64,000 nt of DNA from Emydura subglobosa (taxonomy: Eukaryota > Chordata > Testudines > Chelidae): positions 4,874,597 to 4,938,596 of the forward strand of contig ML679973.1 of the NCBI GenBank assembly GCA_007922225.1, read 5' to 3'. Both the position numbers and the translations under genes were made by a program. The notes beneath the pieces were generated by a model. That model had not been told where the DNA came from. It saw only the letters and a list, made by a program, of their open reading frames with translations, and made no database searches. Below, in pieces: positions 29,035 to 55,353 of the stretch; positions within the stretch are counted from its first letter, which is position 1; each line of letters begins with the position of its first letter.

Positions 29035-29305
29035 ATGGGCTTGAGCTCTGGCATCCTTCACCTCTCCTACAAGTTCAAGCTGCTGCTGCTGTTCGCCTTG
29101 TGTGTGATGGTGGTGGGGTGGGCCACCTCCACTTACCTTGTGGATGCTATGCAGGAGACTCCCAAAGCAAACCGCTCGGTGGAGAATTTCAGAAAGGCAA
29201 CCACGCTGAAGGAGGAGGAGAATCAGAAAAAGGTCTTGTCAACTGTAGACGTTTCCACAGTGAAGTCCACCATGAGTCACTGCCCTGCTCTCTCTCCCTA
29301 CCTGC
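29035..29305 (+). CDS. B4GALT4: B4GALT4 coding exon 1: tail, membrane anchor, stem
   Basis: Encodes residues 1-90 plus one base. The donor is CTGC|GTAAGT. The acceptor of this exon lies in the 5' untranslated part; candidates are after 28,945, 28,969 or 28,977, of which the one after 28,969 has the best pyrimidine tract. Confidence 0.95.
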
Positions 29306-32300
29306 GTAAGTGGCTCAATCTTCAGCACCTGTAACAAATGAAATCTGCTTTTGTGCTACTGACTCTCTGGTTCCCCTCTGGCCACCTCTCACCCAGGTGC
29401 TTTTCAAACTCAAAGCTGTTGCATACCATGTCCTATAGACAGCACCCTCTCAACAGTTAGGTATCAGTTCACCCTAGAAATACTTGAGGTATAAAGAGAT
29501 GTGTAGGACAACTTAATACATTGTGGGGAGAGGTTGTTGGGTCCCCCCATACCCCATGGTGCTTTGACCAGGTGAGTTAAACAAACTAGCTGTGGTAGCT
29601 CATGCATTACTACATAGCTGTCCCCCTGCCTCCATTCTGAAAGACTAGCAGAAACCCAATATGCCAACACTGGAAAGAGAGGAGTGAGGGCATTCATACT
29701 TGCCTCTGAAACTAGTCTGGCCCATATGTACTTACTGGCTATGGCATCCAGTTAGACCGGAATGGAAACCCCATCAGAAATAGCTGCAGCAGCCTGATAA
29801 TCTGGACGCTATGCTCCATTGGCAGCTGTAGGTACCTTGTTACTGGGCTTATTACGGGTCCCATGCTCTGCTCTTCACTGTTTAATCTGTGAAGTCTGCA
29901 GTACTTGAGTGCAGCTCATCCTCTAAAATGCATATTGCAACACACTGAACTCCAGAATGATAATTTAGAAGGAAATGGGTCTCTGCCTCTACCTGTCTTG
30001 TTTGCTGGTTCCACTGCTTCACTCTTTCTTTTATGCTGAATCCTGCTTATGTTTTAAGAGATTTCCCTCTTCCTCAAAACCCATACACTTCCCCTTTCCA
30101 TCTCCATGGCAGATTTGAAAATCCCGGTGAGAAATGAAATGCCATTTCATTAGTGCACCTTCCTTTGACAAAGACTGTGACTGTTTTGGGGACTAATGCT
30201 GTCTTTGAGTCAAAATGACATCTCCAGAGGCTTCCTTAGCCTGGCCATTTTTATTAGTATAATAGCTCTATGTGGAACCTTGAGGTTCACCATATTGGCC
30301 TATCTACCTTTTTCACCTTTACTGCCATTGGATGACTTCTGTGTTAGCAGCACAAAGCTTCGATACCATGTTGTCTTCCGTGTACGCCCGTGCTCATGCA
30401 AGCTGGTTGGGGGATGCTGAATTTTTTTCCTTCCCAAAAATTAGAAAAAAAAAGTCATTTTTTCTTGGGGAAATTTTTTTTTCCAGTCAAAACTTTGCAA
30501 CCATTTCTAATCACAGTTGTTGGATTTTTTCTCTTTCAAGTGAGCTTTCTTTGTGTCAGAAGCGGGTATGATGAAAGATCTGCACAGCAGCCATTGAAAA
30601 GGTCTCATTTGGTCATGAGGATGTAAGATTTGTAAGAACCATTTCCTGCTCTAAGTTGATGTCTGGCCCTACAATGTTTACGTCCATGGTTAAAGCCATC
30701 ATGAATCCCTGCACTCCTATTCTCATATCTCTCAACTCTTGTTCCTCCCCTTCCCTCCCATTGAAGGCCACGTTGAAGCCATCACTATCCTTCTGATTGA
30801 GTGCGACTCCTTTTATATGTCATTGGCATTGCTCCTTTCAGTAAGTGAGTAAATGCTAAGCAACTCCAAGTACCCTCTCCCTCCAGGACCCAGGTACTGA
30901 CTTTACTGCACTCCCCATTCCATTTGATCTGGGAAGCAAGATAAATTAGAATTTGGGATTGAACACAAGCTTCTCGTGCTGTTCTATGGTTTGTGTTACA
31001 CAGCAGGTGAGACTAGATGATCATAATAGTCCCTTCTGGCCTTGGAATCTATGAAAGCTGGAGTGCAGAGCACTCCCATGACGGCAGTGAGCTAGCCTGA
31101 AACCAGAAATGAATTAAGAATGCCTCCTGTGCTTCTCCTGCAGAGGGCACCAGCAAGCTCAAGTTCAAAGAATCTCTCACGTTGGAAGAGGTACAGAAGG
31201 AGAACCCTGAGGTGGCAAAAGGCCGACATCACCCTGCAGATTGCTCAGCACTGCAACGAGTGGCCATCGTGATCCCACACCGCAATCGAGAGAAACACCT
31301 GTTGTACCTGCTGGAGCACCTCCACCCATTCCTACAGAGACAACAACTGGACTATGGTATCTATGTCATCCACCAGGTGAGGCAACCATGAAAGCCAGAG
31401 AACTACCTGCCTGAGAGGAATGGGAGATTAATTAAATTCCTACGCATCCCAAATTCTTCTGCCCTACAGATATTCCTTCTGGCTTTGTAATGGTGCCTCA
31501 GGGCTGGTTGTCTCCTTTATTGGCTACAGCATCCCTTTCACTCAGAAATCCCATCTGAATTAGAGAAACTTTTTAAAAACGTCCCACCTTTGGTAATACC
31601 AGTTCAGCTCTCTGCCCGTTAACAATGTTGCAAGTTTCAAGGCAGACTGGCTGCCAGCTACCTTTTGTGCTTTAAACTAAGTGCCATCCAAGCCTGCTCA
31701 GAATAGGTTTGGTTGTTATGGTGCTAAAATGGCTGTGGGAGCAAGCAGCCGGGCAGCCCTTCTGTGTTGGTGCTCCCACTATTGCTAATACTGGGGAATC
31801 TGGACTATTTTTAGAAAATTTCCTTGATGTAGCTAGTGCCTTCAAAATCATAGGTAGGAAGCATTTGCCAGCCTGAATAAACAATGAAATGTATTGTAGC
31901 TTATTTTGCATTTCTGAGCTAGGGCTTGAAATGACCATCCTAATAATGTTTGTTACTGAGAAAATGAACTTACCAGCATATTAAACTTACACATCCAGGA
32001 TGAAATGTTCTCATCAGAATTTTGGGAGGCTCCATATCCATACCCAGCCTATATGCATGCCTGATCTTCCCTAAGGCTTACCATCCTCTGGATGTAAGAA
32101 GAGCCAGCTTCTTCAGACTCCTTCCCAGAGCACCTCTGTCTCCCTGGATGGCTTCTGGCAAGTGAGCCCTCCTCTTCCACTGGAGAAGGGCTTTTAAACT
32201 CTTAGTGTTTTGACCTCCAAGCTCCCAGCTTTGACAAAACAACTCTGACACTTCAACCTGGAGACAGGATCCTAGAAGCTAACAGCTTGTCCTGCATTGT

Positions 32301-35300
32301 GTGCTGGAGGCTGCTCACCCTAGGCTTATTGGGTTGCTTTCCTGTTTGTTCTCCCTACAGCCTGTTATTAATTTAGATCAGAATAGTCATACAGGAAATT
32401 CTATTAACTCACCATAGTTACACAATACATTTACCTCCCTGACCAGGTCATTTACAATATTCGTACTATTATTGCGTGTCAGTATTCATAGATTAATACA
32501 TTGCAGCTTATTGTCTGTCACAACTGAATCTTGTGTGTGTGCGTGCGCGCGCGCGCTGCTTTGTCTCCAGGCAATATATAATAGCTTGGGGTTAAATCCA
32601 ATAGCAACTGATAAATAATATTGATCCTAATTCCTTAGCAGATGATTTTATAAAAATAAATATTGATAAAGATGGAAAATAGGCAACTTCCTTTTTAAAG
32701 GGAATTTTAACTGTCATTCTCTTTCTGTTTGCACTGCTGGTTGTTGTTCATACAGGATGCATTTGGCAAGCTAGTGTGTGTGGGTGTGTGTACTTGTGTA
32801 CGCAAATGCATGCATGCTTACCAGATGGCTGCATCGTTACTCTGACGTGAATTTTGTCACCCTCAAAAGCTTATGAAACTGGCTACAGCTTAAAATTACT
32901 GAGCTACAATTAAAATAAATCTATAGAAACTGATACTTCTGAGAAGGGAAGAGGCACCAAACTATAGCAAAAAGTAAACACATACAATCAGTTTAAAAAA
33001 AAAATCCCAAGCCAGTAGTCTGGTACAGCACTGTGTATATAAGACAGTGTGTGAAAATTGTGAATAGAGTACCAGACTGGATGTTAGGAGTACCACATTT
33101 TCCCCCCAGCTCTGCCACATAGTGTAACCTTAAGCAAGTCACTTAACTTCTCTGTGCTTCAGCTTCTCAATATGGAAATAGTAATATGTTCCTGCCTTAT
33201 AAAGTGCTCTAAAATCTATAGAAGAAAAGTGCCAAGTTTTATAATACATTTATTTTTATGTAACTCATGATAACAGTTGCATTTAGAGTCAGCACTTTCT
33301 TCTGCTTCCTAAGCTACATGGCCGTAGCTCTTCCATTACCTTGTCTGATGGAAATTCTAAGATCAGTAATAGGAGTAGATTCATGACAGGTAGGGAATGA
33401 AGAAATACTTCACAATATTGGCTGCTTTGATGCCCACTTGTAATGTCAAGGAATAGTGTGGTGTGAGAACTTGATACAATATAAAGGCTGTGAGCCATGA
33501 AGAATACTGTAAACTATGTGATTAGGATGGAATCCAGGCAGGTAGCAAATCAAGTTTAATGGGGTTGATGTATGTCTTGTTTTCCTTTCTTTTTTCACAG
33601 GCTGGCAACAGCAAGTTTAACCGAGCTAAACTGCTGAACGTAGGATACCTGGAGGCCCTGAAAGAGGTGGAGTGGGATTGTTTCATTTTCCATGATGTGG
33701 ACCTCGTGCCAGAGAATGACTTTAATATATACATGTGTGACAAACAACCAAAGCACCTTGTAGTTGGCAGGAACAACACTGGGTACAGGTAGGAATGGAA
33801 GAACTTGGAGAATATTTTGACTGGTAATTGCCAGGTTATTGGAAACATTCCCCTTTCTACAGGATCCTTAGTTTGGTGCATTCCCTGCCATCTGATATGG
33901 TACTGTGCCCTTCTATCGTGCCTTCTATCCAAGGAGCTTTACAAACATAAATTAACTTAGTTTCACAAATCACCGGTGCGGTAGGTCACTGTTGTTAGCC
34001 CTGTTTCTCACATGAGGAAATGGAGATTCTGAGTGCGCTAAGTGATGTTTTTGGTGGTTATGCGTAGACACTGTGGCAGAACCAGAAATTCATTTCAGGT
34101 CTCCTGGTCCTGTGATTTAACAGGATCATCCTCCCTAAAGTTGCTCTAATAAAGTTTCTTCTGTAAGATCTCCATATCAGACCTTCTTCTGTAGAAGAGG
34201 TAGCTTTATTAGAGCAACTTTAGGGAGGATGATCCTGCCTCTCATTAGCTGTTTATACAGCTCATAACACAGTAGGGTTCTGATGTGAATTGGGCCCTCT
34301 AGGTGCTACTGTAATACAAATAATATATCTAGAGTGTGAAATAGGAAATCAAGTCCTACTCACCTCAAATAAAAGAGGCCATCAAATCTGGCATGAACAC
34401 TTAGAGGAGTTGAAGTAGGAATGCTGTATCCAAATATTAATGATAAAAATTGTGCTATTCAAAAACTGAGCTGCAGTGTGTGAAAGTAAAACTCTTATAC
34501 CCTTTACAAAGAGACAGGGAGAAGACTTGGTGTGCAAATCATTAAACAGAATAAAAAGCCTCTTACCATATCTTTCCCAGACCTGAATAAGAGTTCTGTG
34601 GAGCTCCAAAGCTTGGCTCTTTCACCAACAGAAGTTGATCCAATAAAAGATATCACCTCATCCACCTTGTCTCTGTCACCACTTAGTCAGTCTAACCCCA
34701 GGATTCCACCCAGAAGAAAACCAGACTCAGAACAGATTTCTGGAAGTACTGCACTTTGCAAAGAGAATACCAAGGGCCTGAAGACGGTCCACTGAACACA
34801 GCAGGAGCAATAACCCCAGTTGTTCAGGAGACATTTGGATTCTAGAAGAGTAACAATGGAATGACCCTGGAGGCACTTGAATGACCTCAGATGTCCTAGT
34901 TACTGCATCTGTTTTGACTAGTGAATCACAGATGAATTTTTGCTCTTACTAGAGATTTTCTTAGTTAATTTTCTAAGCCTTCTTTTTGTCTCTGGGAAGG
35001 AATGGCTAGTTTTCATTTATCTAACCGTAGAAAGAAAATACAAGGATGGGAAAATAGGTGGGTGCCCTTTTATTGGTCATTGGTGGAAGACTTCCATGTT
35101 GGGCATATTAAAGAAATGAATAATAGCCCTAGGATCTTCTAGGCTGAATTTACTTTGCTTATCTTCTGTATATACTGTAATTGACACCTTCTTCTAGTCT
35201 CTTCAGCTTATGCGTTACATCTACTTAGACTCACACACACACATAATTTATAGCCACTTGCATATCACCTGAGAGGTTGTGTTTGTAATCAATGCTTTGA

Positions 35301-38300
35301 AGGCCAGAGGAGAGAAGTGTCAGGAAAAGCAACTAGTAAGAGAGTAGAAGGTCAGTAATGTGGGTCACCTCCTAATTGGTGTAATTTCCAGGACAGAGGA
35401 GCTAGAGGAAGCTGAAATTAATCTCCTTTAGAGGCAAGCTTCCTTACACTAATTTACCAATGTGTAACTTACACTACCTTACACTTTACAGTATATTACA
35501 CATCACCTCTGAATTTGTCCTGTAGTGCCTCTAGCTCCGTACTGTTGCAATCAGTTTTTCATATCTAGTCTTCAAGACTTTACCATCAAATTGTAATACT
35601 ACTAATCCACTGATTAGAAAATAGCTATCCTTCCTTTCAGTAGGTCATTGTTAAGGTTAAAAGTCTGTCACAGGTATTTTTAGTAAAAGTCAGCAACAGG
35701 TTGTGGGCAATAAACAGAAATTCACAGAAACCCGTGACCTGTCCCTGACTTTTATTAAAAACACTCTGGGAGGTGGGGAGACAGTCTCCCTCCTGTTTCT
35801 GTGGCAGGGGTGATTGCTGCTGCTCAAGACCCAAGGGAGCTGACCCAACCCCAGCTGCTGCTCCAGCCCTGTGGCCACTGCTTCAGCAGCTCCAGGGCTG
35901 ACAGCAGCTCCAGCCCTGCCCTAAAAGTCACAGAATCCGTGACAGAATCATATCCTTGTGTAGCCTTGCTACCTCCCTTCTCATTTGGAGCCCTTGGGAT
36001 ACAGAGCCATCTTTGACTGGCAAGGAGATATTCAGAGTTGAAAAACAAAGTAAAGACTGCGCCAGGCTGCCAGTTGGAGAGAGAATTGTTCTGATTAGCA
36101 CTCTGAAGCGAATCATAGTGTTGTGGAGAGAAATGGGCCGATCTGAACACCTTTGAATTTTGGAGAAAGTTCAGACCTTGGTTCAGACTTCGCAGCTTGG
36201 GCTCAAAGTTTCAGGGCTGTATTTTTGTATTAGCTCTTAAATTTCATGTCACTTCTATTTTTCAATTTTTCACTATACCTTCTTGTATATTTCTAGGTTG
36301 CGTTACCAGGGATATTTTGGAGGAGTAACTGCTCTAACAAGGGATCAGTTTTCCAAGGTGAATGGATTCTCTAACAATTACTGGGGCTGGGGTGGAGAGG
36401 ACGACGACCTCCGAATCAGGTAACCAAATGGCTAGAGGGAAATGGGTGTGTATCGTATGAGGTGTGGATGAATCGGATATCTGTGGATAATACTCCATGT
36501 GTGACTTAACATGAGAACTTCTCTGCAGATGGAATAGTGAAGGGAATGTACCACTGGAAGTCCTTGAGATATGAAGAGTAAACGAGTTAGGGAATTTGCA
36601 ATGTGTATGGCAGGGTATTACTGGCTGATCAGCCAGCATTACTGGGTGCTGGAATCAAGATAACACTTCATTGTGCTTGTCTGGCACTAGCATACTTGCT
36701 GTGTTCTGTGGGGTGATAGTGAAATTATTGATTTCATTGAGAGCAGAGGTGTTAATTCTGGGAAGGATTTTCAGTGCTGTTCTGTGCATCCAGAAGAGGG
36801 GCATCCCTTTAGAATCCTTCTCAGGGCTACAGTGGAAGGAATTACATCTGTATTCTGCTCTTTGCCTCTGTGTTAAACATACTGCTCTTCTTTGAGCCTC
36901 CTTCTAAAGCAAGTCTCATTAAGAGAGTTTGAGGATACAAATCGACAATTTACTGCCGTATTCAATCATCAAGAAGTCTCAGGGCTTCAACTCCTCAAAC
37001 CCTATTCAGTTTTCTGACTTGCCAGCTAGTTGCTCAAATAGCCCCGAGTATTCAGTTCTGTGGCCATGAAATTTGCTTTCAAAATCCCCATTTGCAGGAA
37101 AATTCTGCTCCATGACCTTTTATTTAAAAAAACAAAACACCCAAAATATTCAAAAGTGGGTGCTTGCAGTTGTATTTTAGGCACTTCAGGTATCTAGCAC
37201 TCATTGCAAAGAGAACCTTCAAAATATAAAGAGGTTAAATTGATGTGATGTATGCTGACAGCCTGAAACAATAGTTCAGAGAGCTGTCAACTGCCCAGTT
37301 ATCGCAATAAGATGTTCACTCTGAACCCCATTGATTAATGAGAACCTATTGACTTCAGTGCATCAATATTATTTCCTTGTCCGTGTGTTTTGGTCCTTCT
37401 AACAACACCAGCTCATGTGTTTGTCCTGCTATGCTAAACTGCCTCCCCATTGCCAAAATCCACAATTGTCCCCTACCTCAGTTGGAAGCCTTTAGCTTCC
37501 CTCCAACAACTTCTTCAATGCCGTTTTTGTGTTTCTATATAAAAGTCTGTAGCTCATTGAAAACGGAATGGGCAATGTAAAATCATGTGAATTTAATATC
37601 AAAATCATAATGGCAATAAACATGCAATTCAATCAAGACAGACTAGACAGTGTTGTTTTTAATTTTCCTGATGATACCCCAGAATCTCCAGCTGCCACTC
37701 TAGGGCCTTGCCACCGAAATTAGGCCACGTTCATTGTAGAATGTATGAGGCCATGCCATAGACTCCCTGGATGAATATAGCCAACATGAAACAGGCCACA
37801 AGGCTAGAGAGAATTGCTGTTTGAATGCTGTTGTATAATGTGTTTAACTCCCAAAATAAGCCCATACCAGTTTAACAGTTAATTGCCTGTGGTCAAAAGG
37901 AATGGGAGCCCTATCTGAATCTGCTTTGGGAAAACAGAAGTTTGCTGGGCTCCATTTCTATGGTGGACTGTGGTGTGGGGGAGAGGGGAGGGTGTGTCTG
38001 AGTTCTCTGGGGTGTGGCACTCTGTCTATAGACATATTTTGGCTCCCCAGTTATCCTCCAGATGCTCTAGACAAGTCTGTAGCCTTCTTCTTGCCTTGGT
38101 GCTGAGCTTACCGCCTGCAATATTACTACTTCCAGGGTTGAGATGCAGAAGATGAGGGTGATGCGGCCATCCCCTGATGTAGCCAGGTACACTATGATCT
38201 TCCACACAAGAGACAGAGGCAATGAGGTGAATGGAGAGAGGTGAGTCAGGACTAGAACTCCATTTCACACCCTTTCCCCACATAGGATGGAGACAGAAAG

Positions 38301-39031
38301 GACGGATGACACAGTACAAGAGGTTTGCGCTGCCTCTTTCCTGCTAACACAGTCTGGGAAAGTGTGCTTTCTGAGGTGTCCTCCTCCCACTGAACATTAA
38401 TGTGACTGTGAGCCATACAGGAGAGAGAGAGGCTAACTAGCTAGGCTCATTACTGGAGACCTTTGCATGGTATCTGAGCACCTCTTAAAATTGTGTGCAT
38501 AAATGGCCCCACACAAACTAAGATGGAGTTACAGTTATGGGCACATACCATCATTTGGGTGCACATTATTTTTCAAAGGTTAGAAAGCCAGGAGTTTTCA
38601 TGAAATTATAGATAAGCTCCCTGTGTGTCTGTGTCTGATCCTGCTGAGGGAAGGGAAAGCAGGAATTTGTGGTTCCCAATACACACGCACACAAGAGAAT
38701 AGATGTAAAACTGGTAACAGGAATGCAGTCTTCTAAAGTGCTCTCACTTCTTCAGATCCACCAATAACACGAGTGCACGATAGAGCTTGATGCTGCTCTG
38801 CTGTGACTTTTAATGGCATCTCTAGCTCTGAAGTACGGGTTTCCCAACTTCAGTCCTATAAATATTTTTTTCTCTGACTATATCCTTAGGATGAAACTCC
38901 TGCGGCAGGTGTCCCGAGTGTGGAAAACAGATGGGCTAAACTCCTGTTCCTATAAATTGCTGTCAGTGGAGCACAACCCTTTGTACACCAACATCACAGT
39001 GGATTTCAGCATGCCACCCAAGATCTCGTAA
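29035..39031 (+). CDS. B4GALT4: beta-1,4-galactosyltransferase 4, six coding exons
   Basis: A type II Golgi membrane enzyme that transfers galactose from UDP-galactose to GlcNAc, with 6-sulfo-GlcNAc a preferred acceptor of the human protein. The coding exons are 29,035-29,305, 31,144-31,376, 33,601-33,788, 36,297-36,419, 38,136-38,240 and 38,890-39,031. All splice sites are GT-AG, and the product has 353 residues (human 344). Seen in the protein: short cytosolic tail, membrane anchor at about 16-36, stem with an NRS glycosylation site at 46-48, PHRNRE nucleotide motif (exon 2), [10 protein letters not shown] (174-183), DVD metal motif (200-202), WGWGGEDDD (260-268), metal ligands Met292 and His295, and the NITVDF end. 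The start at 29,035 has a strong Kozak context (GGGCCATGG). The membrane region and the [10 protein letters not shown] stretch resemble human B4GALT4 more than the other paralogues. No lesion is seen. It is convergent with the paralogue at 43,471-54,395. Confidence 0.95.
30955..31062 (+). repeat. CR1-type 3' end
   Basis: 'ACAGCAGGTGAGACTAGATGATCATAATAGTCCCTTCTGGCCTTGGAATCTATGAAAG' type sequence, here in pieces, is a CR1 3' terminus. It lies about 80 bp upstream of B4GALT4 exon 2. Confidence 0.75.
31144..31376 (+). CDS. B4GALT4: B4GALT4 coding exon 2: start of catalytic domain
   Basis: Acceptor TTCTCCTGCAG, donor CACCAG|GTGAGG. Encodes 91-168, including [32 protein letters not shown] and [15 protein letters not shown]. 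This is the UDP-binding part. Confidence 0.95.
32533..32560. repeat. (GT)n-(CG)n tract
   Basis: GTGTGTGTGCGTGCGCGCGC and further CG units in intron 2 of B4GALT4. An alternating purine-pyrimidine sequence. Confidence 0.9.
33060..33245 (+). repeat. MIR SINE
   Basis: 'AAGCAAGTCACTTAACTTCTCTGTGCTTCAG' type core (in pieces) followed by 'AATATGGAAATAGTAATATG' and 'AAAGTGCTCTAAAATC'. Clear MIR in intron 2 of B4GALT4. Confidence 0.85.
33601..33788 (+). CDS. B4GALT4: B4GALT4 coding exon 3: DVD motif
   Basis: Acceptor CTTTTTTCACAG, donor TACAG|GTAGGA. Encodes 169-230 plus two bases. It contains [15 protein letters not shown] and [13 protein letters not shown]; the second Asp of DVD is a metal ligand in the family. 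Confidence 0.95.
33890..34118 (-). repeat. MIR SINE, antisense
   Basis: 'CCAAGGAGCTTTACAAACA', 'CACATGAGGAAATGGAGATT' and 'CAGAACCAGAAATTCATTTC' followed by 'AGGTCTCCTGGTCCTG' form a reversed MIR-type SINE. A further antisense piece (34,255-34,330) follows on the other side of the inverted repeat at 34,121-34,237. Confidence 0.65.
34121..34237. repeat. perfect 34-bp inverted repeat with 49-nt loop
   Basis: The left arm is 34,121-34,154 (starts CAGGATCATCCTCCCTAAAG) and the right arm is 34,204-34,237 (ends CTTTAGGGAGGATGATCCTG). All 34 positions pair. It sits in intron 3 of B4GALT4 within a MIR-derived stretch. In RNA it would form a long hairpin. Confidence 0.95.
34555..34800 (+). repeat. 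interspersed repeat common in reptiles (family not named)
   Basis: 'GACCTGAATAAGAGTTCTGT', 'AGCTCCAAAGCTTGGCTCTT' and 'CAACAGAAGTTGATCCAATA' followed by 'AAAGATATCACCTCATCCACC' is a sequence I recognise as abundant in turtle genomes. I am not sure of its class. Confidence 0.55.
35640..35965. mobile_element. non-autonomous transposon with 'GTCACAGA' ends
   Basis: 'AAAGTCTGTCACAGGTATTTT' at the left is related to the inverse of 'AAAAGTCACAGAATCCGTGACAG' at the right. The interior holds CAGCTGCTGCTCCAGCCC-type GC-rich repeats. It lies in intron 3 of B4GALT4. No transposase frame. Confidence 0.55.
36297..36419 (+). CDS. B4GALT4: B4GALT4 coding exon 4: WGWGGEDDD catalytic loop
   Basis: Acceptor TATTTCTAG, donor ATCAG|GTAACC. 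Encodes [14 protein letters not shown] and [16 protein letters not shown], with the small-loop Trp (262) and the Glu-Asp pair intact. The length of 123 nt equals exon 4 of the paralogue. Confidence 0.95.
38136..38240 (+). CDS. B4GALT4: B4GALT4 coding exon 5: metal ligands and long flexible loop
   Basis: Acceptor ACTTCCAG, donor GAGAG|GTGAGT, 105 nt. Encodes residues 273-306 with [17 protein letters not shown]; Met292 and His295 correspond to bovine Met344 and His347. Upstream codons translate in frame from the arginine split with exon 4. Confidence 0.95.
38890..39031 (+). CDS. B4GALT4: B4GALT4 coding exon 6: C-terminus
   Basis: Acceptor ATATCCTTAG. Encodes [33 protein letters not shown] and a stop at 39,029-39,031. 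The last residues (SMPPKIS) differ from the human end and are nine longer. Confidence 0.95.
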
Positions 39032-43470: not shown

Positions 43471-43642
43471 TCAAGCTCTATTGTCTTTGGTTTTGTCCTT
43501 TGGCGGCAATGTGGGAGCATTCCCAATGTCTACAGTGATGTTGGTATAAAGAAGGTGTTTCTTTCTTGAAAGGAGTTTGAACTCTACAGAATTCATTCCA
43601 TCATCCTTCCATGTTTTTCTGGTGTTGTGCAATGGAGCAGGC
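43471..43642 (-). CDS. B4GALT3-like: B4GALT3-like coding exon 6: C-terminus
   Basis: Acceptor CTCCCTTCAG, 172 nt, stop TGA at 43,473-43,471. Encodes [37 protein letters not shown] and a lysine-rich end DKTKDNRA. The DGMNS and YTNIT-DIG signatures are those of the family C-terminus. Confidence 0.93.
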
Positions 43643-46600
43643 CTGAAGGGAGGAGAATACTGTAGTTAGATAAAAGGACAGCACGGACACATTCCCATCT
43701 TTGTCTAGTCAATTACAATACAAACTGAGAAATACACAACAATTTGTGAATATGATCAAGAGGCATAAGCAGGGAGGAGAGGCACTTTCACGTAACATTG
43801 AAGTAAGATGTAGACAGGCCTATAGGGAAGCTCTTCCAGGTGGTAGAAGCTTTATAGGTGAAGTCTTCCCCCACAGGCTCTGAGAATGTCCCTTTGCCCA
43901 AAGGAAACCGAAATAATTGTATGGCATTTATAAACAAGGATCATTTGGAACTGGAGCCTGAACTGAATAGGGGACAGGTGTTACTTATGCTGGGTGGAGA
44001 CTTTTCACCTGGTACGTAAATACATCCTGGGGGATTTAAGTTAGCACAAAGGCATCCACCTTCCTCAAGTCAGCTCTCAGATTTCTCATTTTTAATAGGT
44101 CTGCATACATCTTAGTGATTGACTGCTAGCATAATTGACAAAATCTTAGACATTTAGTTTGTCTGAGATGTACATAAAAATCGGGGGGTGAGGCAGGAGA
44201 TCAAGCTTGATTCTTAATATTCCAAGATACCCGGAGATGACTAAATTGGCTTGTTTCTTCATTTGAATAATTTGACTATTTATTCATATTTAAAACTACA
44301 GTATTAGTGTCTAGAGCCCTAATCATGGACTAAGACCCCATTGGGCTGGGTACTTATATAAAACTCTTGCTCGCAACTGCTTATCGAAAGACTAAGCTTA
44401 CTGCCACAGCCTTCAAACAAAGTGAACTAGTATTAAAGCATCTACACTAAACATTTAATCATAGAAAGTGAGGTTCAGTTGCAATTGGCTTTTGACCAGA
44501 CATGTGATTGTGCTGATATCACAAACGTTCTTTTTTCCCTGTGAGGCCAGAGGCTGCCAGCAAGTCTGCAGGAATTCAAGTTATAATAAAAACAAATCAA
44601 GCAAGTGTTTCTACCCTGTGAATTTCCTAAACTCTGTGCTGAACAAAGCTAGAGACAGTTTCTTTAAATAGGAGCATTTAAAAGCAGGATGATGATAAGC
44701 AGCTTCTTGGACTGTGCTTTCTGCCCTGCATGAGGAGAAAGGTGATAGCACTCAGGCAGCAGGCTGTACAGACACGGGATTGGTCAGGCTGGAATTTGGA
44801 CAACTTGAGGACAGAGCCCTCCTACAAGAGTTACCTTCTCAGGTGCTCTTCACTCCCTGGGCGTTGCTCAAGATCCACTATTTTGTAGCGTCCAAGATGA
44901 AGAGGGGTCCTGACTATTTTCATTCCTGCTAACTGAATCCTTTTAAATGAAAACAGAGCAAAATCTCAGTTTAAACAAGGATGCCATTTTTAAACTCCTC
45001 TTTAGGCTACAGAAAGTGCAAATAGAGATGTTTCCTGGTAGAAACACAACCAAAGCAAAATATACAACAGGGATGAAAAGACAATACTTCAAATTCAAGA
45101 AGCAGGAGTGCAATTATGGTACTCAGTGATACCCATTGACTTACAACATAACACACCACTGACTTGGCCAACACTGCTGGGGGAGACTGTGATTGGACCA
45201 CTTACTTTACCTAAAACTAGTGGTACCTAAATATGAGTGGGCCAGCAGCAGAGTATTATGCTACCATTCAGGTAAGCTAGGGTGGGAGCATTCCAGAGGC
45301 AGTAGCAACTGTTATGTCAAAAAAAATATATAGTCCCAGTGCTACCACCAGTGGAGTGAACCGTTGGCAGTTCTAGATAGATCTTAAGTGTAGCCAAGGC
45401 TCCTACAGCCAGATCCATTCCTACTAAGGTGTTTAGTTTGGCAAATGAACATCTTTGAAACTTCTTTCTAGTCAATTTCTTTCAATAAAAGTTCTGTTTG
45501 GGAGATAAGAGCTGGGGGTAAATAGCAACAAGCTATACTGCAAGGTTTCTGCTCCCAAACCATTAGGGAAAGGCCAGAGTGCCAAAAATAATTAGACTAG
45601 GATCAAATAAGCCCACAAAAGGTATTCATTCAGTGAGAGCGTGTATTAGCATTTGGTAAAGTACCATTATCTCAACCTGGGCAGTAGCAAAAAGTTTGTA
45701 TGTTTGCATTCAGAAAACATTTCATTGCACATTCATTCAAATAAAAACTGAGAACTGCAAAAAAGCTGAGCCATCATTGCTGTTGGACTTGAAGTCTGGC
45801 ATTGCAAGATTAATTGTAATGCAGCTTTAAATACAAAAAGTTATGTTAATGCAACAATAATTGGGTTGTTTTGTTTTTTTTTTAAAAAGAGAACACCCCC
45901 AAGAATGTCACTTTTAAATGGTTCCAATTACATTTTGAAGCTCACATCTTATAGGAGGTGAATGAGAAGGAGATAGGTTCCTACTGAGACCAACAGTGTC
46001 AGCTAGTCCTGTTTAAACATTGAACTCAACTTGGCTTCATTATACCCATTAGATAACGCTGGTCCGCAGTGAGTTGGACAACTCCGCTATTTAAAGCTTT
46101 ATTATATTAGAACACACCTAGAAAGAAGCCAAGGGTTCATGCCAGATTTCAAATTTGGTTTTACTGTTCTACAGCATGAGTGCTCAGTCCTTTCTAAAAC
46201 ACAGCTCCCTTTTAGGTGTCAAGCTGGTCACTCAAAAATCAAAGCACCCAAAATCACTACAAAGTATTGAAAATGTAGGACTGTTTGGTGGTTAACAAAG
46301 AATCGTTATTAGCCTCCACCACTGATAATCTGCCACTCAGGTGGATGTGGTGGTTATCAGTTATTTGTAGCATGTAATTCTCACAGGATGTTGCATGGGA
46401 TTTACTTTCCTCCAAGGAAAGTATGGTTTGGGGCCCATGCAGGCTAACACTGCCCCTTTTCCAGATTTGGTTCCTTAAAAATAAAGTGCACTTTAGTGCA
46501 CAGGACTCCAGTATGGCACTTCTCACCCCTAGTACCCCAGCTGAGACCCATGTTAAGAGCTGAAGCACTGCAAAAAGCATCAGGGTGAGTTTCCTAGTTT

Positions 46601-49600
46601 TTAGAAATTCAAGAAACTGTACCCTGCTCTTCCATTCATCCAACAGTACCTTGATTACCTTTAAAAGTAATTACATTCCTTTAATAAGATTTCTCTGATC
46701 AAAGGAACTAACTTTGTTAAATACTTCACTTTCCATTCTCAAGAGCACAATGCTTGGTAAGACTCTCCGTTCTCGAACAGAATGTTCCACTGAAAATTAC
46801 ATAACCTGTCATACTGTGCAGAGCTGAAAACATGATTTTTTTTACTGCCAGCTAAATAGTATAACCTCCTCAACAGTCTGACTCAATGTCCATTAATAGA
46901 GCTGTACCATTGGTGAATTACAGCTACAATAGTTGCTAAGGCAGGCAAGGCCAAGGGGTCTTTACTCTGTACTCTACAGAGCTGCATTGGGTACAACTGA
47001 TGTAATTAAACTCCCTGTATTCACACCCACAGTACGTCACCTTTCTAGCACCAAAAAGATCACATTGTGCCACACTGACTCATATGGTACTTAAACCTCT
47101 ATGATATGTCACACAACATGTCTGATGGTTCAAAAATGGGAATCTGGATTCTTTAAGTTACTAGCTCCCCAAATACCGGGTACTTACTGAAACAGTCTTT
47201 CAGGGGGTAAATGCCACATCCTGAAACTCCTCCTATTTTTAAATCTAAAGCATCAATTAAAATCACCTTTCTACCTTGGCCGCTGAGTATTCTCTCCTAT
47301 ACAACAATTATTTCAGTGAGAGTCAGCTCTCAGTCACTGTTGGTTTATATAGCTCTTGGAAGAACCCCAGAGACAGAACAAGGGTATTCAACACCACATT
47401 CTCTCTAGCACCTGAAGTCCAGGCTAGCTGAAGAAAGCTTCTAACTTCTCACTGTACAAAAGTGATACTTTAAACAAAATTATTAGAGCTAACATATCCT
47501 GACCCTATCACCTTTGAATGTAATGTCTCCAGTACTGAATTCTGGAAGGATGTTCATACATTGGAGAGGGTTCAGAGAGGAGCCACAAGAATCATTGAAG
47601 GATTACAAAATATGCCTTACAGTCATAGATTGAGTTCTTCAAGTCTATTGATAGCTCAACTTTAAGGGGTGCCTTCATTACAGTCTATAAGTATCTACAT
47701 GGAAGAGCCTATTATTAAATATATCTTTCTCTACTAGATAGAGAATAGCTAACAGGCTAGCTTCAACTTCCAGCCATTTGACTAATTCAGTCTGGAAATA
47801 AGGTGTAAAATTTGAATAGAGAGTGCAATTAACCATTGGAACAATTTACTAAGGGTTGTGGTGGATTCTACATCACTGAATTTTTAAATCAAGATAGGAT
47901 TTTTTTTTAAAAGATTATAGTCTATAAATTATTTTGGGGAAGTTCTGTGGCCTGTATTAGGCAGGAGGTCAGACTAGATGATCATATGGTCCTTTCTGGC
48001 CTTGGAATCTATCAATCACACCAAGTTAAAGAGGTCCAGAACCGATTAGCTCTTCTTGAGTTACTCCTGCTGGGCTAATGCAGGACCATGCAATACGTTA
48101 CTTTAGAACTTCATTTCATTCTGTTTTAAATGGCTCTGTCCTACCCCTGAGTACCTTGCAGCAATATCATCATCTTCCCCAGGACTGCCCCAGTAGGTGT
48201 TTGGAAACCCATTTATCTTCATGTAATGCTCTGGAGTCAACGCAGACACCCCTCCGAAAAAGGACCAATATGGCAAACTAGAGAAGAGAAGAACAAATTG
48301 TCAAAATTGAGAGTGTGTCAGTCCCTTTACAAATGGTCTTACACCACAGTGATGAGTCACATGCATCTCACTCTCAGCTTATTGGACTTGTATTGCACAA
48401 GAAGCTTCATATTTACTGTGGCAAATATTGAAATGAAATAAAATATAGCCTGTAGAAAGTTTTAGTCACTGAATAAGTGGGAAATTAAGACTTCAGCACA
48501 GAAGATCAGACTGGCAAATTCAACTTAGATTCCTTCTAACCAGCAAAATTCAGAGACTAACTGTTTTGCAATTGACATGCATTTTTTCCTCCATTGTGAG
48601 GGAAATACTGTACTCCGCTCACAGAAGAAGGAAAAAATTAATTACCCATCAGTCACAGGATAATGAGTTTGTTTGCTTTGAGTAGCTGCTGAAAGCAAAA
48701 AGGGGCCTCAAAGGACTGGGTTTGCCCTGGTGTGTCATAAAATGATCGATGATAATTACAAAGCTGTTGAAAGTGATGTAGGTTACGATATTATCAACAT
48801 CTCCATGTTGAGATCCCTACGCAGCAGTAGTACCATGTCACATGTGTGCTGCCTAATGTTCTCCATCCTGCATCTTTTGGAAGGACAGAACACAAAAACC
48901 TGTCAGTTTCAATATGGGTGCATGGTAGAGAGGCAGGAATCCTTTGATTACAACTCGGATGCATGTCCCTTCCTGCAACAGGAAAACATTGGGGAAACAT
49001 TGAAGTAACATCCTTCAGCGTCCAGGCCTAGACTATGCTAGATGTTCTATCAAAACGGTCCATCCCAAATCCAGTGCAGGCCTTTACCTGTATTGGAATT
49101 TGTCTATGGCACTGGCAATATGTTTGGGGTAGTATTCATCACACACATAGAGGTTATAATCATTCTCAGGAATGAGGTCCACATCATGCAGGAGCAGGCA
49201 GTCCCAGTCCTCATCCTTCATGGCTTCCCGGACACCAACATTAAGGAGCTTTGCTCGGTTAAAAGTAGCATTCCCAGCCTAGAAAATAGAACATGCAGTT
49301 TACTCACCAAATCCTGAAGTGCAGCATTCCAGGGTCTAATTCAGCTCGCACTGAAGTCAATGGCAAAATTCCCATGGATTTCAATGTGAGTGAGATTGGA
49401 ACGTGATGCTGGGTAAAATTTTCGGAAGTGCCTACGGCCCACTCCTAAGTCCTTTAGGTGCTTTTGAAAGTTTTATCTGCTGCCTTAGCATAAGAATGGC
49501 CATATGGGTCAGATTAATGGTCCATCTAACCCAGTAACCTGTCTTCCTACAATGGCCAATGCCAGGTGCTTCAGAGCAGAGGGAATGAATAGAACAAGTA

Positions 49601-52600
49601 ATCATCAAATGATCAAGCAACTCTACGAACTTTGGAAAGTTAGAAGTCTTTTGCCTCTGGGCATAAAGAGAAAAAGGATTCTACCCTCTTTTCTTGATTA
49701 ATATAGATCTTCAACAATACATCCCTGCACACAGATATTGCCCTTATCCCTCTTTAGAAAGAAGCCAGAAATAAAAAACACACATCTTAGTTACAGACAA
49801 CTGAAAAAGATACTCCCCTTCCTAACTAGCCATCAGTTGTCACCACTAGTTAATTTCCCCCTTCTGGGGATCCTTCACAACACCAGACCGCATCAGTAAC
49901 ACCAACTGTTTGGCCTATGTAAGTCTGACCCAGAGTAGGATCGAATCAGTTTGTATCTCACTCCAGGCATATAGTAAGGATACGCAATTTCGCTCTGGCA
50001 CTGCTTTCTGTCTGACTCAGAAGCAGCTCTGATGAGCTCGAGAGAAGACATATTCAGCCCTCTTTGGGCTCCTCAAAAAACCCCAAACGTGGAACAGTAT
50101 CCAGTGCTAAGATACAACTATAAGAAAGAGTAGGTTAATTATGTGCCATTCTACGTTTATATTCACAAACTCCATATTTGTCATGGAGTACTTGTGTGTC
50201 TGCTTTTCATTCACAGCCAAACCATTTCTTAACTGGAAATCTGCACTGCAGCGATAGAGACACGTGGTTTTGATTTACCTGCTGAATCAAGTAGATGCCA
50301 TAGTGAAGCTGCTGGCGCTGCAGGAAGGGATGAAGATAATAGAGAAGGTGTCGCAGGTGCTTCTCCTGGTTCTTGTGTGGTACAATGATGGCTGATTTGT
50401 AACGAGCCAGGCAGTGAGGAGGGCTGTAATAGCCTCCAAACTGAACAAAGGGATTTTTTTTAATGATCATTCTTTCACTGGGGAATGCATTGAAGGTGAT
50501 GGTTAATGGACCAACTGTAAGAATGAAGGAAAGGAACAAAAACAAAAAGTGAAAATTTGGTGAATATAAGGTTGATTCAAATCGCCATTCAGATCCATCA
50601 TAATAAAACCTCAGATCTACTGCAGGAAACACTTGATCTGTATCCAACAGGGAGCTATTAAGAACAATGTACTGGGGCACCTGTCTCATTATGGGTTGGA
50701 ACCCATGAGGGAGGCCTTTCAGTGGGCTCCTCCACAGTCCTGTTCTGACATTTGCTGCTCTCCATTCACACTAGCAGAGAAAACCCAGACCCCCGTGGAA
50801 GCTCCTTGTGAAAGTAGACCACAAGGGTGTCTTGATAAAAGGCAAGATATTTACCAATGCAGGATAGTTGTAGAAACAATCACATCTGCCTTCTTCACAT
50901 AAATGGAAAAAGGCAGTATCAATGCCTCATTTCAGGGACAAAATGATCTGGAGGAATTGTGGTGACTACTCAAACTATTTTGGAGAAAAACAGAACTTAA
51001 AGGGAGGGGTACTTTCTCCTCAGTGCAGCCCGTGCCACCCAAAGATCAATTCCCCTTCTGTTCTAATGACAATCTGATAGTATTTAGCAGTAGGTGGGCT
51101 GTTCCCTACTTTCAGAGTTCACAGCCAGCTCCCAGTCCATTCTGTTGTGAGCAGGGGCTCTGTCACCACCTTAGTATCAGGAAATCAGATCCTTGCTACC
51201 ATACAGTTTATTTCAGTGGCTTCTTTTCCCTTCTCATGCCACTTTTCCCCTGAGTGCTATCCTATCTGTACATTTCTATTATACTGTTTTTATATTTAAA
51301 ATAAAAGTTACATATGAAAACACTTAAAGTAAATCCTAAAAGCTTAAACCCTCATCACAAAAAATGCCCTTGCCTATTTTTTCCCTTTAATTCAAACAAA
51401 AGCATGATCCCTAATAGAAAAGCATCAGTTAGACATGACCACAGGGACCACTCATTATTACCACAGCAGATGGGCATGCTCCTAAGAAGGCTATGACAGA
51501 TGGTAGTAAGAGGGAGGGACTATTTTAGAAGACATTGGACCAAGTTTGCTCTTGGTATAACCCTATTTAATTCAGCATTACACAAGGGAAGAATCTGACC
51601 TATCAAGTATTCTAGAGCCAAATCTAATCATTCACACATGAGGACAAAGTGGATACTGCCAAAAAAAATTCCTTGCTGAAAAAAAAACTTTCAAAAACAA
51701 GCTTCTGGCACAGGCAAAAGATGCATTAGGAGAGAGAATGCACTGAACCACATTGCTTCTGTAGATATTACAAGCAAGGTGCAAAAACACAGGACTTTGA
51801 AGTTAAATGGCTTCAGTGGATTGAGCATACTAACTGTAGATTTGCCTTTGACAAACAAAGTAGCAGCAGACAACTGATTTTTGCTTAGACAATCTTCAGG
51901 ATGGAAATAAAGTTAGTTGTTCCATATAGTAAAGACGACACCGGACATTTAGCGCACACACAAATGAAGAAAGGCCTGCAATTCACAGAAGGCTTGATCC
52001 AAAGCGACGAATTACCCATCTCCAACTTGGAACTTGAAGAATTACATTTGAAGTCTGATTTAATGGAGACCACAAAATGAGTATTGGAAGGACAGGTATT
52101 TCATTCCATATGTGATGTTTTTAATTGTGATGAGACTCCTGAGTTTTTATTACTAAATAATTTGTATATCTATTTAGTTCTTTCTAAGGAGAAGAATAAA
52201 TGCCTTTTACAGTAGCATATGTTTAAAAGGGTTCATTTATGAGGTCTGTACACAATAGGTCATGAGTATCTGGAGAAAAGAATTTTTTTTATGCAATGAA
52301 AAAAGTGTTATTGGTTAGGAAGTTAGTAAATTAAAGCAGAATCTTATTTCACAAACTGCAGATGTTCCAATACCACTAAGGTTGCCTTTTGCAGTGTGAC
52401 ATTGTTTCAAATGCAGAGTTCTAGTTTCCTCTAGTGGTTTCCATAAATGTTAATTACTCTAGAGTAATTAATCTACTTAAATGCCATCTTTAATTTGCTC
52501 TCATTTTGACAGCTCCATATAAAGCATCATTCTCTGATTATCTGATGGCTGAAGGGCAAGTTGTACAGTGCTCACAATTTGTTTGTTTGGAGGTTAAAGA

Positions 52601-54395
52601 TAAAGTAAAGCCTCCTATTTCAAGAAAGCCTTTTAAGGGGGATTCTTGTTAGTGTTTTCGGAAAGGGAGCACAAGCATCCATTCACTAATCTACATCCTG
52701 GGTCATAGCGACTGAAAGTTCTTACCATCTAGCCAAGCGTTCTTACATTAATTGGTGAGCTCTAGTCTGCTCCAGACTGAGTCCATACCTCAAGAAACAA
52801 TTACTGGCATCTGTGCCAATAGGCTCACAGACAAAGATTTCAATGGCTATGAGGAGAGTTACTCACCAACAGAGGTGGCTGTTTCCAAGAGAGGAGTGAG
52901 GCATACAAGCAAGACAGCATGAGTGACAAACCACATACATTGCCCCCACACTGCCTGTGTTTATCTCAGTGACAGAAAAAGAAACAAAGGATGATCAAAC
53001 ATGATTATCAAGCCCATAGAGATAGTCTAAATGCCAATCCAGATAAGTAAATCCATGTTTTCTAACTAAATCAAGCACCTGTTCCACCAGACAGCTGTGT
53101 TGTGCCCACACAGTAGCTTTTTAAAAAAACACAATTACCTGGTACCACTCTTACCATGCTGCCTGACAGTGTTTGCATCACTACATCTCAGAAAATCTGG
53201 ACAGTCGTCATATAGTGGCTACTGTACACGAAAGACATACACAGGACAGCATCTGCAACATGTGGGGCAATTGACTCTGCGGTGCCCTACCACTGTACAG
53301 AAATGGGAGGAGGGCTGGCTAAACTGGTTACACAGGCAGTTAGGAAGTGTCTCAGTCTGCACATTTTGTACATGTTGTGATGTAGCTAAATCAGCTACCG
53401 TCAGTGCAAGCTCTAACGTAGTCTAAACACAGTTTAGTTTTTGAGGTTGTTCTTTTTTTAAAAAAGTCAGTCAGTCAGTCACTGGGTCACCTAGCCCTGC
53501 TTAGAGCTCTGTCTGATTATTCATTGTCAAGTCACCTATCAGGCAGAGCTATGAGAAGGACTAGATGACACCAGTAACTATAGCATAGTGCCCAATCTAC
53601 ACTGTGGCTGCTGCAGTGCTACCTACATCCCCGCTGGAAAACTAGCGCAGAATTTCCTTGTGTCCAAACAAACCAACAGCATTACAAAAAAAACAAACAA
53701 ACACACACACCCCCCCCCAAACAAAGAGTGTAACTAACTGGCAACAATAAGAATACATGCCAGTCAAGGCCTCTAGGAACACAAAACACTCAGCTGCCAT
53801 GGTTACTGAGTGTTAACCACCTTATGTGTTGACAAAACACAAAACAATATTTACTGCATGCCACAGGGCTAGCTCTAAGGGCTTACAAGCTCACTAGGAA
53901 GTTGTAGCACAGACAGGGCCTAAGTTTACACTAAACAAAACCACCTCTATGGTTTGATGGCTTCACCTGCTATGAAAGAATCAGTAAATGTCCAATATCT
54001 AGATTTAAGATGAAAGGAAGGGATTAGTCTAGCCCAGAGAGTGGCAATGCTAGTAGGCACTACGGTAAATTAATGACAAACGTGGGTTTCACTTTTGTCA
54101 AGTGAAAAGTATCAGTACACTGAGGCAGGAGTTCAGGCACTAGCAGTTTATACATACCAAAGATTGGTGACTGGGCTGTGCAATATGGCATCGTTTCTTC
54201 ATTAGAAGCTCGAGTGAACAAGCTGAGGTTTGTATACACATCCTGTGTTTTGGAGTAATCCCAGGGCTGAGCTGCATCTAAATATCCCCGAAACACACTA
54301 GATGCGCCACCTCGGTACAAAATCAGGATAAATATTGCTTGAAAGACAGCTAGGAAGAGCAGAAAACAAGGATTTTCAACCCGAGACAGGGACAT
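43471..54395 (-). CDS. B4GALT3-like: B4GALT3-like protein, probable pseudoenzyme, six coding exons
   Basis: Coding exons on the minus strand are 54,395-54,158, 50,514-50,279, 49,278-49,088, 48,277-48,155, 44,939-44,835 and 43,642-43,471. All junctions are GT-AG and the joined frame is open for 354 residues. Kept: membrane anchor at about 11-27, stem with NLS glycosylation site (56-58), [14 protein letters not shown] (164-177), DVD (190-192), EDDD (256-259) and YTNITVDIG (330-338). The stem DYSxxxDVYxNLS, VREA and the DWDCLxLHDVDL context resemble human B4GALT3 (393 residues, longer at the C-terminus). Lost: small-loop Trp (WGSPG at 251-255), metal ligands Met and His (Ile283, Leu286), the RDKxNE loop, and the PxRxR arginines (PHKNQ, 125-129). 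These residues are needed for galactosyl transfer in B4GALT1. The intact frame argues against a simple pseudogene. Function unknown. Confidence 0.9.
44835..44939 (-). CDS. B4GALT3-like: B4GALT3-like coding exon 5: metal ligands lost
   Basis: 105 nt, in phase with exons 4 and 6. The acceptor is CATTTAAAAG, with an A-rich run between pyrimidine tract and AG, which is unusual. Encodes IQLAGMKIVRTPLHLGRYK (264-282) and IVDLEQRPGSEEHLR. Compared with B4GALT3 (VRLAGMKISR...YKMVKH), Met is Ile283 and His is Leu286. Confidence 0.9.
44940..47500. other. intron 4 of the B4GALT3-like gene, left part
   Basis: No recognisable repeat or exon apart from a T-run near 45,880. A minus-strand frame of 128 codons (46,257-46,643) has no splice context or family similarity and is treated as chance. 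Confidence 0.45.
47500..48020 (+). mobile_element. CR1 LINE fragment
   Basis: 'GAGAGGGTTCAGAGAGGAGCCACAAGAATC' type sequence (the C-terminal coding part of CR1) runs to the CR1 3' end 'AGACTAGATGATCATATGGTCC' and 'GGCCTTGGAATCTATCAATC'. 5'-truncated and mutated. It ends about 135 bp from exon 4 of the B4GALT3-like gene. Confidence 0.85.
48155..48277 (-). CDS. B4GALT3-like: B4GALT3-like coding exon 4: altered small loop
   Basis: Acceptor TTCTTCTCTTCTCTAG, donor GCAAG|GTACTC, 123 nt. Encodes SLPYWSFFGGVSALTPEHY and NGFPNTYWGSPGEDDDIAA. The codons for the usual Trp-Gly are AGT CCT (Ser-Pro). The Tyr equivalent to bovine Tyr289 is Phe228. Confidence 0.95.
49088..49278 (-). CDS. B4GALT3-like: B4GALT3-like coding exon 3: DVD motif kept
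   Basis: Acceptor CTATTTTCTAG, donor ATACAG|GTAAAG, 191 nt. Encodes [40 protein letters not shown] and AIDKFQY. The DVD metal motif and the Lys equivalent to bovine Lys279 (Lys218) are retained. Confidence 0.95.
49325..49410. repeat. short palindromic interspersed repeat
   Basis: 'ACTGAAGTCAATGGCAAAAT' followed by 'CCATGGATTTCAATGTGAGT' is an inverted pair found widely in sauropsid DNA. Confidence 0.55.
49430..49640. repeat. interspersed repeat common in turtles (family not named)
   Basis: 'TTAGCATAAGAATGGCCATA', 'GGTCAGATTAATGGTCCATC' and 'TAACCCAGTAACCTGTCTTC' followed by 'AATGGCCAATGCCAGGTGC' and 'GGGAATGAATAGAACAAG'. I recognise it as an abundant repeat; its class (CR1 tail or SINE) is uncertain. 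Confidence 0.65.
50279..50514 (-). CDS. B4GALT3-like: B4GALT3-like coding exon 2
   Basis: Acceptor TCATTCTTACAG, donor CAGCAG|GTAAAT, 236 nt (B4GALT4: 233). Encodes 81-158: VGPLTITFNAFPSE, SAIIVPHKNQEKHLRHLLYY and LQRQQLHYGIYLIQQ. In the nucleotide-binding motif the usual PHRxRE reads PHKNQE. Confidence 0.95.
50520..54157. other. intron 1 of the B4GALT3-like gene
   Basis: About 3.6 kb with MITE-like debris (about 53,550-53,900), CAGT repeats near 53,468 and an A/C-rich low-complexity run at about 53,685-53,722. No other exon recognised. Confidence 0.5.
52450..52471. promoter_or_regulatory. perfect 22-bp palindrome with homeodomain-type half sites
   Basis: The central 20 bases are TAATTACTCTAGAGTAATTA with one further pairing base on each side. 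Each half carries TAATTA, the core of many homeodomain sites. A regulatory role is only inferred. Confidence 0.4.
54158..54395 (-). CDS. B4GALT3-like: B4GALT3-like coding exon 1: tail, membrane anchor, stem
   Basis: Start ATG at 54,395-54,393 in context AAACCATGT. Encodes 1-79 plus one base. The anchor FLLFLAVFQAIFILILY is followed by an Arg. The stem contains DYSKTQDVYTNLS and a PYC motif. The donor is TTTG|GTATGT. Confidence 0.93.
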
Positions 54396-55345: not shown

Positions 55346-55353
55346 ATTTGCAT
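55346..55353 (+). promoter_or_regulatory. octamer ATTTGCAT (POU site)
   Basis: A perfect octamer at the upstream edge of the CpG island, between a GC box and the ZNF143-type motifs. Role inferred. Confidence 0.45.

Follow-up and report, generated by a model that had tools for sequence, protein, structure and literature searches.

Results

A B4GALT3-like gene with altered Trp and lid loops

We analyzed a 64,000-nucleotide stretch of the turtle Emydura subglobosa (contig ML679973.1, positions 4,874,597 to 4,938,596), referred to below as the window, and in particular a B4GALT3-like gene on its minus strand whose product differs from active B4GALT enzymes at catalytic positions. The gene spans ~11 kb and consists of six exons with five GT/AG introns, which together give a 1065-nt frame of 354 amino acids without an internal stop. 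Exon 1 (54158..54395), comprising 79 codons plus 1 nt and ending at the donor G|GTATGT, provides the ATG, a short cytosolic tail, a transmembrane helix, and the stem, and its N-terminus fits that of the turtle ortholog P0002. The hydrophobic helix is the membrane anchor segment, and the protein is presumably anchored in the Golgi membrane. Over and upstream of exon 1 lies a CpG island (54251-55750; GC 0.58-0.75 and CpG observed/expected 0.68-0.90 in 500-base windows), which is likely the promoter.

Exon 2 (50279..50514) encodes VPHKNQE where the family has PHRNRE, with Arg189 replaced by Lys and Arg191 by Gln; here and below, residue names such as Trp314 or His347 carry the numbering of bovine B4GALT1. 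Exon 3 (49088..49278) retains FNR and the metal motif DVD, residues 190-192 of the window protein, which correspond to the ligands Asp252 and Asp254. The Trp loop, encoded by the 123-nt exon 4 (48155..48277), reads YWGSPGEDDD, such that Trp314 has become Ser and the following Gly has become Pro; Tyr289, in the same exon, is Phe. Exon 5 (44835..44939) encodes the lid loop, and exon 6 (43471..43642) encodes the well-conserved C-terminal part of the catalytic domain (NTRKTWKDDGMNS) and the stop codon. A repeat that resembles the tail of a turtle CR1 long interspersed nuclear element is found at 47500-48030, toward the intron 4/exon 4 side of the gene.

The initial annotation of this DNA had placed exon 5 at 44835-44939, with a length of 105 nt and a preserved phase. 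This is correct, although the strand, which it omitted, is minus; the exon is flanked by an AG acceptor and a GT donor and is in phase 2 at both entry and exit. As the annotation also stated, the encoded lid, RYKIVDLEQRPGSEE, has Ile283 and Leu286 at the places of the Mn ligands Met344 and His347, and the RDKGNE signature is gone. The Trp loop reads YWGSPGED rather than the WGWGGED of active B4GALT enzymes. Its family motif Y-x-M-x-x-H needs amending: Met and His are invariant, but the Tyr is not universal, since human B4GALT1 has C-R-M-I-R-H.

A differently spliced, canonical exon 5 had been named beforehand as the finding that would speak against this picture, and none was found in the window. 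A tblastn search of the window with five exon-5 peptides (E < 0.1) returned only exon 5 itself (5/5 queries) and the corresponding B4GALT4 exon (4/5). Between 43.4 and 48.3 kb, the minus strand contains two strings that fit YxMxxH, at 45658 and 48095, each with a stop within a few codons. Exons 4 and 5 (123 and 105 nt) can both be skipped in frame, and lid-less forms may exist, amphibians included. In the alignment, the lid exon 5 is missing from the database 3-like proteins P0070, P0095, P0096, and P0100, and the Trp-loop exon 4 from P0084, P0091, and P0102.

An ancient paralog of B4GALT3

The window gene is the turtle ortholog of 'beta-1,4-galactosyltransferase 3-like', a group adjacent to B4GALT3. 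We examined the best 120 of 2518 matches from a protein search, and it is to these that the following statements apply. Most carry the name 'beta-1,4-galactosyltransferase 3-like', and some are called plain 'galactosyltransferase 3'. The top matches are three turtles with 93-94% identity, a doubtful Pelodiscus model with 81%, gharial, tuatara, birds, and lizards; amphibians, gar, bowfin, and sharks come next, mostly above B4GALT3. We counted 43 sauropsid 3-like sequences, 13 of which were omitted from the trees and from all counts based on 31 sequences because they are fragments, exon-lacking isoforms, or doubtful models (P0005, P0032, P0043, P0049, P0053, P0058, P0062, P0064, P0070, P0084, P0091, P0100, and P0102). 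These re-enter the counts of 41 and 40 sequences given below wherever the residue is present: of 44 sequences, including the window gene, three have no residue at the Trp site and four have none at the His site. The doubtful model P0005 is also counted among the five turtle sequences.

A maximum-likelihood tree was built from 73 proteins with the active-site loops excluded; its root rests on a single long-branched outgroup, the B4GALT4 of the window, and support is given as bootstrap/Shimodaira-Hasegawa-like approximate likelihood ratio test. The tree sets 54 B4GALT3-like sequences apart from 19 B4GALT3-type or other paralog sequences (100/98), unites the 31 sauropsid sequences in one clade (100/99), and groups the window gene with three turtles (98/96). 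The non-sauropsid sequences contributed 23 members to the 3-like set, namely 15 amphibian, four ray-finned, and four cartilaginous fish sequences (two placed by the tree alone), and 18 to the set of B4GALT3-type or other paralogs. Among the sequences outside the tree are further frog 3-like proteins and a Tetraodon fusion protein, P0028. Because amphibian, ray-finned, and cartilaginous fish sequences fall in the 3-like group, the gene is as old as jawed vertebrates, and on this phylogeny we regard it as an ancient jawed-vertebrate paralog of B4GALT3.

The ortholog P0002 matches PF13733 with 192.6 bits and PF02709 with 82.5 bits (cut-offs of 27 and 23, respectively), and this domain order is shared with the non-sauropsid orthologs (four proteins tested). 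No mammal-named protein occurs among the 3-like proteins in the best-120 match lists of our searches, in which some sequences are unnamed; the gene was likely lost in mammals. No teleost was recognized among the 3-like proteins of these lists either, the Tetraodon fusion protein being unplaced. Seven stretches of prokaryote genome contigs matched a pattern, but none of them encodes a relative, in keeping with a gene of vertebrates.

Loss of catalytic residues in sauropsids

Residues were counted in the 120 listed proteins plus the window gene, i.e., 121 sequences. Trp314 is kept in 0/41 sauropsid 3-like sequences that cover the site versus 77/77 of the others, and His347 in 1/40 versus 75/75. 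On the tree, Trp314 requires one change and His347 two; each of Met344, Asp318, Arg191, Asp252, and Asp254 requires four to six. Therefore, Trp314 and His347 were most likely lost on the sauropsid stem, as judged from these patterns, and the other catalytic residues would have been lost separately and later. The non-sauropsid 3-like orthologs used keep both the WGWGGEDD Trp loop and M..H and, from their sequences, look like canonical UDP (uridine diphosphate)-galactose enzymes.

The Met position behaves differently from the His and Trp positions, whose losses are common to all five turtle sequences and nearly all other sauropsid sequences. Ile is found at Met344 only in the window species, while the four other turtle sequences, one of them the doubtful P0005, keep Met. 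The Met loss is thus recent in turtles and, among these five, specific to the window species.

Further losses vary by lineage. Asp318 is changed in 12/14 bird sequences and the DxD motif in 10/12 lepidosaur and 2/14 bird sequences; in the same clade-wise count, no turtle, gharial, or bird sequence keeps Arg191, and 5/12 lepidosaur sequences are without it as well. Within the set of 31 sauropsids, Asp252 is kept by 20, Asp254 by 25, and Arg191 by seven. The UDP-binding stretch PHRNRE (residues 125-130 of the window protein) has become PHKNQE in turtles and gharial, whereas many birds have AYRNQE, which makes it one more site with lineage-specific decay. At the Trp314 site, sauropsids have eight different residues. 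Tyr289 is Phe in 30/31 of them, Pro occupies human position 356 (bovine 360) in 25/29, and bovine position 363 is variable.

A constrained scaffold around drifting loops

We mapped the substrate and metal residues given in the B4GALT1 structure paper (PMC6198961) onto the alignment. Two criteria, invariance among the non-sauropsid 3-like sequences and an identity of 90% or more within the B4GALT3-type set, selected 100 columns, of which 16 hold substrate or metal residues. Fewer than 90% of sauropsids keep the residue in 8/16 substrate/metal columns versus 14/84 of the others (one-sided Fisher p = 0.0067). The window gene itself keeps 12/16 and 79/84, respectively.

Mean pairwise identities, which are uncorrected for divergence time, are similar for the catalytic domain outside the four active-site loops (0.78 in sauropsids, 0.75 in amphibians, 0.77 in B4GALT3), and the C-terminal part is at 0.76, 0.70, and 0.71, respectively. 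In contrast, the Trp loop is at 0.69 in sauropsids versus 1.00 in both amphibians and B4GALT3, and the lid, the least conserved segment compared, is at 0.43 in sauropsids, 0.65 in amphibians, and 0.86 in B4GALT3. In a quick tree, the sauropsid stem branch measures 0.23 versus 0.05 for amphibians, the mean crown branch length is 0.37 versus 0.47, and the mean root-to-tip distance is 0.60 versus 0.53. Twelve positions have a residue that is present in at least 80% of sauropsids and rare in other 3-like and B4GALT3-type sequences; they include Phe228 (bovine Tyr289), His239, and the lid residues Asp285 and Pro299 in window numbering. These comparisons suggest that change was concentrated in a burst along the sauropsid stem, after which new constraint set in.

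Thirty sauropsid clusters, with representatives of 299-406 amino acids, stand for 583 member sequences, which were not individually inspected. Two bird entries, P0011 and P0012, give a whole protein with the altered exon 5 from contigs of no more than 2,357 bases. The turtle gene spans ~11 kb, so these contigs would represent spliced RNA provided that the gene is similarly long in birds, in which it would then be transcribed. At the protein level, catalytic residues are lost and the scaffold is still constrained, which is the pattern of a conserved pseudoenzyme.

The AlphaFold model of a turtle ortholog, P0002, from which the fold result stems in place of the window's own spliced protein, has a mean predicted local distance difference test score (pLDDT) of 80 and aligns with B4GALT1 crystal structures at a target-normalized template modeling score of 0.90-0.93. 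Within its catalytic domain, pLDDT falls below 50 in the lid (288-298) and in part of loop 1 (220-224). The model of a canonical-looking Xenopus ortholog, P0047, used as a control, has no such stretch in either place; over residues 281-290 and 291-300 of the lid, its pLDDT is 80 and 68, versus 68 and 46 in P0002. These models hint at a floppier lid in the turtle protein.

Neighboring B4GALT4 and other genomic copies

B4GALT4 (28969..39022, plus strand) lies tail-to-tail with the B4GALT3-like gene, the coding ends of the two being ~4.4 kb apart, and serves as a control within the window, having a canonical WGWGGEDDD and lid. Its first coding exon, with a start codon and a hydrophobic segment, falls within the plus-strand open frame 28969-29331. 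The other exons, also on the plus strand, were located by tblastn at 31146-31379, 33586-33789, 36295-36420, 38134-38241, and 38873-39022, ranges that are inexact as exon bounds; the canonical lid sequence that the initial annotation had ascribed to B4GALT4 can be read at 38134-38241. Across the same genome, PF02709 matched 15 times; seven of these matches are strong and represent exon 4 of the B4GALT1-6 type. WGWGGEDDD is kept in 6/7 of these, including B4GALT4, and the exception is the B4GALT3-like gene. The window's exon 4 scores 55.5 bits with PF02709. Elsewhere in the window there is a second GC- and CpG-rich stretch (~3501-5000), and open frames at 56700-57560 (plus strand) and 9527-10488 (minus strand) resemble, by eye, fragments of retroelement reverse-transcriptase or pol genes.

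Discussion

A candidate pseudoenzyme of the Golgi

When the lid of B4GALT1 closes over the donor, its Met and His complete the Mn site, and the Trp flips in to bind UDP-galactose and acceptor, as described in PMC6198961. With Trp and His gone, this closing cycle can hardly run in the sauropsid protein; in addition, the Pro that most sauropsids have at human position 356 falls inside the lid helix that, per the same paper, forms upon closing. The initial annotation had judged classical Mn-dependent galactosyl transfer improbable, and the sharing of the Trp314 and His347 losses by the sauropsid orthologs bears this judgment out: from the aligned sequences, we think it very probable that classical Mn-dependent activity has been lost. 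The pseudoenzyme pattern that it proposed also stands insofar as the loops drift, the scaffold is constrained, and more catalytic residues are lost in birds and lepidosaurs; what must be revised is the age, since the change is far older than was supposed.

We propose that in a stem sauropsid a canonical-looking enzyme lost Trp314, His347, and the RDKGNE signature of the lid, and that the protein has since been retained as a membrane-anchored, presumably Golgi, pseudoenzyme whose intact B4GALT fold would serve as the structural partner of an active Golgi transferase. Such pairing might tune the stability, location, or acceptor choice of the active transferase, as CHPF does for CHSY1/3. We give this proposal as a whole an even chance of being right; a role alongside an active Golgi transferase is likewise about evenly balanced between true and false. 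Which transferase that would be is a guess. A heteromer formed via another surface would be the likelier arrangement, rather than a B4GALT1-type homodimer, because the lid-side contacts are changed and a His mutation abolishes homomers of human B4GALT1. A salt bridge at the rim of the B4GALT1 dimer (human Glu313 and Arg330) is largely present, with Glu317 kept in 28/30 and Arg334 in 30/31 sauropsids.

Several observations weigh against the proposal. Glu317 has a second role in donor binding, so its conservation does not point to the dimer specifically. The lid-side dimer contacts (human 356, 359, and 360) are altered in sauropsids; at positions 271, 277, 318, and 322, almost all 3-like sequences depart from human B4GALT1. 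According to PMC6198961, M340E lowers B4GALT1 activity by 94%, leaving ~6%, and H343A abolishes its homomers; loss of the His could therefore weaken, rather than favor, dimerization of the known type. Catalytic residues are also not uniformly gone: His347 is retained in the gecko P0007, Met344 in 11/31 sauropsids, and Asp318 in 14/30 of the same 31-sequence set. All five turtle sequences keep DVD, Glu317, Asp318, and Arg228, and weak activity is therefore possible in turtles; the residues kept there would allow a residual, weak, or altered activity. Finally, the lid is less conserved than the remainder in the active enzymes of the B4GALT3-like group as well, the pairwise identities on which the contrast is built are uncorrected, and the sauropsid root-to-tip distance is slightly longer than that of amphibians.

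Alternative explanations

The residues kept in turtles, to which the window gene adds Phe280 and Tyr286, are what one would expect if the protein were still an enzyme of changed chemistry, be it metal-independent or weakly metal-dependent, using another donor or acceptor, or hydrolyzing UDP-sugars. Some GT-A enzymes work independently of metal, among them, by its title, a distant Foldseek match (4ayj), and Tyr289, which PMC6198961 gives as a donor-specificity residue, is Phe in nearly all sauropsids. However, the same source reports that changing this Tyr to Phe leaves activity unchanged, so it is no sign of a new donor. One conserved chemistry would also sit poorly with catalytic losses that differ by lineage (DxD in lepidosaurs, Asp318 in birds), with a Trp314 site that has no uniform substitute, and with a lid that is the least conserved segment. 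We regard this explanation as unlikely. We consider it somewhat less likely again that the old acceptor or donor site is used without catalysis by a lectin-like binder of glycans or nucleotide sugars. The loop-1 acceptor residues Phe280 (22/31) and Tyr286 (28/31) are largely retained, and the hydrophobic UDP-pocket residues Phe226 and Leu255 are kept in 31/31 each, but Trp314, which helps to anchor the acceptor, is gone in every sauropsid sequence covering the site, and the acceptor helix has mostly Pro at position 360 and is variable at 363.

If the gene were relaxed and decaying, its active site would be drifting en route to loss, as seemingly happened in mammals, for which no 3-like protein is named in the best-120 match lists; the long sauropsid stem could be read in this way as well. 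Yet the 30 clusters with their 583 member sequences, a core as conserved as that of active relatives, a C-terminal part slightly more so, and crown branches not longer than the amphibian ones leave decay only a slim chance. That the altered loops are a sequencing or gene-model artefact, with another exon 5 or exon 4 truly in use, is hardly credible. Some predicted isoforms elsewhere do lack exon 4 or 5 (e.g., P0084 and P0070), and either skip keeps the frame, but the window holds no other canonical exon 5, like losses occur in other turtles, gharial, tuatara, lizards, snakes, and birds, and the bird proteins P0011 and P0012, from contigs of up to ~2.4 kb, carry the altered exon 5 in what would be spliced RNA, given a gene of similar length in birds.

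Implications

According to PMC6198961, strict conservation of the Trp loop WGWGGED extends over B4GALT1-7 and the animal orthologs of these enzymes. Against that statement stands a whole ortholog group that is without this loop although the protein is kept. Many of these proteins are named galactosyltransferase 3 or 3-like in databases, and models of glycan pathways in birds and reptiles may therefore count an enzyme that probably is none. Canonical-looking amphibian and shark orthologs next to altered sauropsid ones also provide a natural experiment on non-catalytic roles of a Golgi transferase. We found no description of the sauropsid gene in the open-access literature searched (titles and abstract openings), where the gene names led only to work on skate.

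More tentatively, and with somewhat less than an even chance in our estimation, the whole gene may have been converted once, at the base of sauropsids, so that its product became a non-catalytic Golgi subunit dedicated to controlling how another enzyme galactosylates, the gene being kept in turtles, crocodilians, birds, and lepidosaurs and lost in mammals. If so, glycans would be tuned in a lineage-specific manner in one of the two amniote branches, and the B4GALT1-6 family would, to our knowledge, have its first dead branch.

Comparison with known systems

The closest known proteins are the B4GALT3-like orthologs of sharks, bowfin/gar, bichir, and amphibians, which have the same PF13733 and PF02709 order; the sauropsid branch differs from them in being without Trp314 and, save for one sequence, without His347. 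B4GALT3 and B4GALT4 are paralogs within the same family (GT7), and, unlike the window gene, the six other exon-4 copies in the genome keep WGWGGEDDD. Comparable in kind to the tuning of glycans proposed here is alpha-lactalbumin in mammals. C1GALT1C1 (Cosmc), to which the initial annotation had likened the protein, is a pseudo-glycosyltransferase that serves an active relative. It is of the GT31 type, another family, so the likeness is by analogy only and a Cosmc-type role would be a guess. CHPF, which shares the GT7 fold, is the nearer precedent. Its GT7 domain has neither the DxD nor the His found in CHSY3, and its main contribution is to stabilize the complex, as stated in PMC12748766. CHPF and CHPF2, the partners of CHSY1/3 in the chondroitin polymerase, differ from the sauropsid protein, whose own partner is hypothetical, in being two-domain proteins of another GT7 branch with an independent loss; yet their GT7-type domain, although without DxD and His ligands, is needed for the complex to form (PMC12748766).

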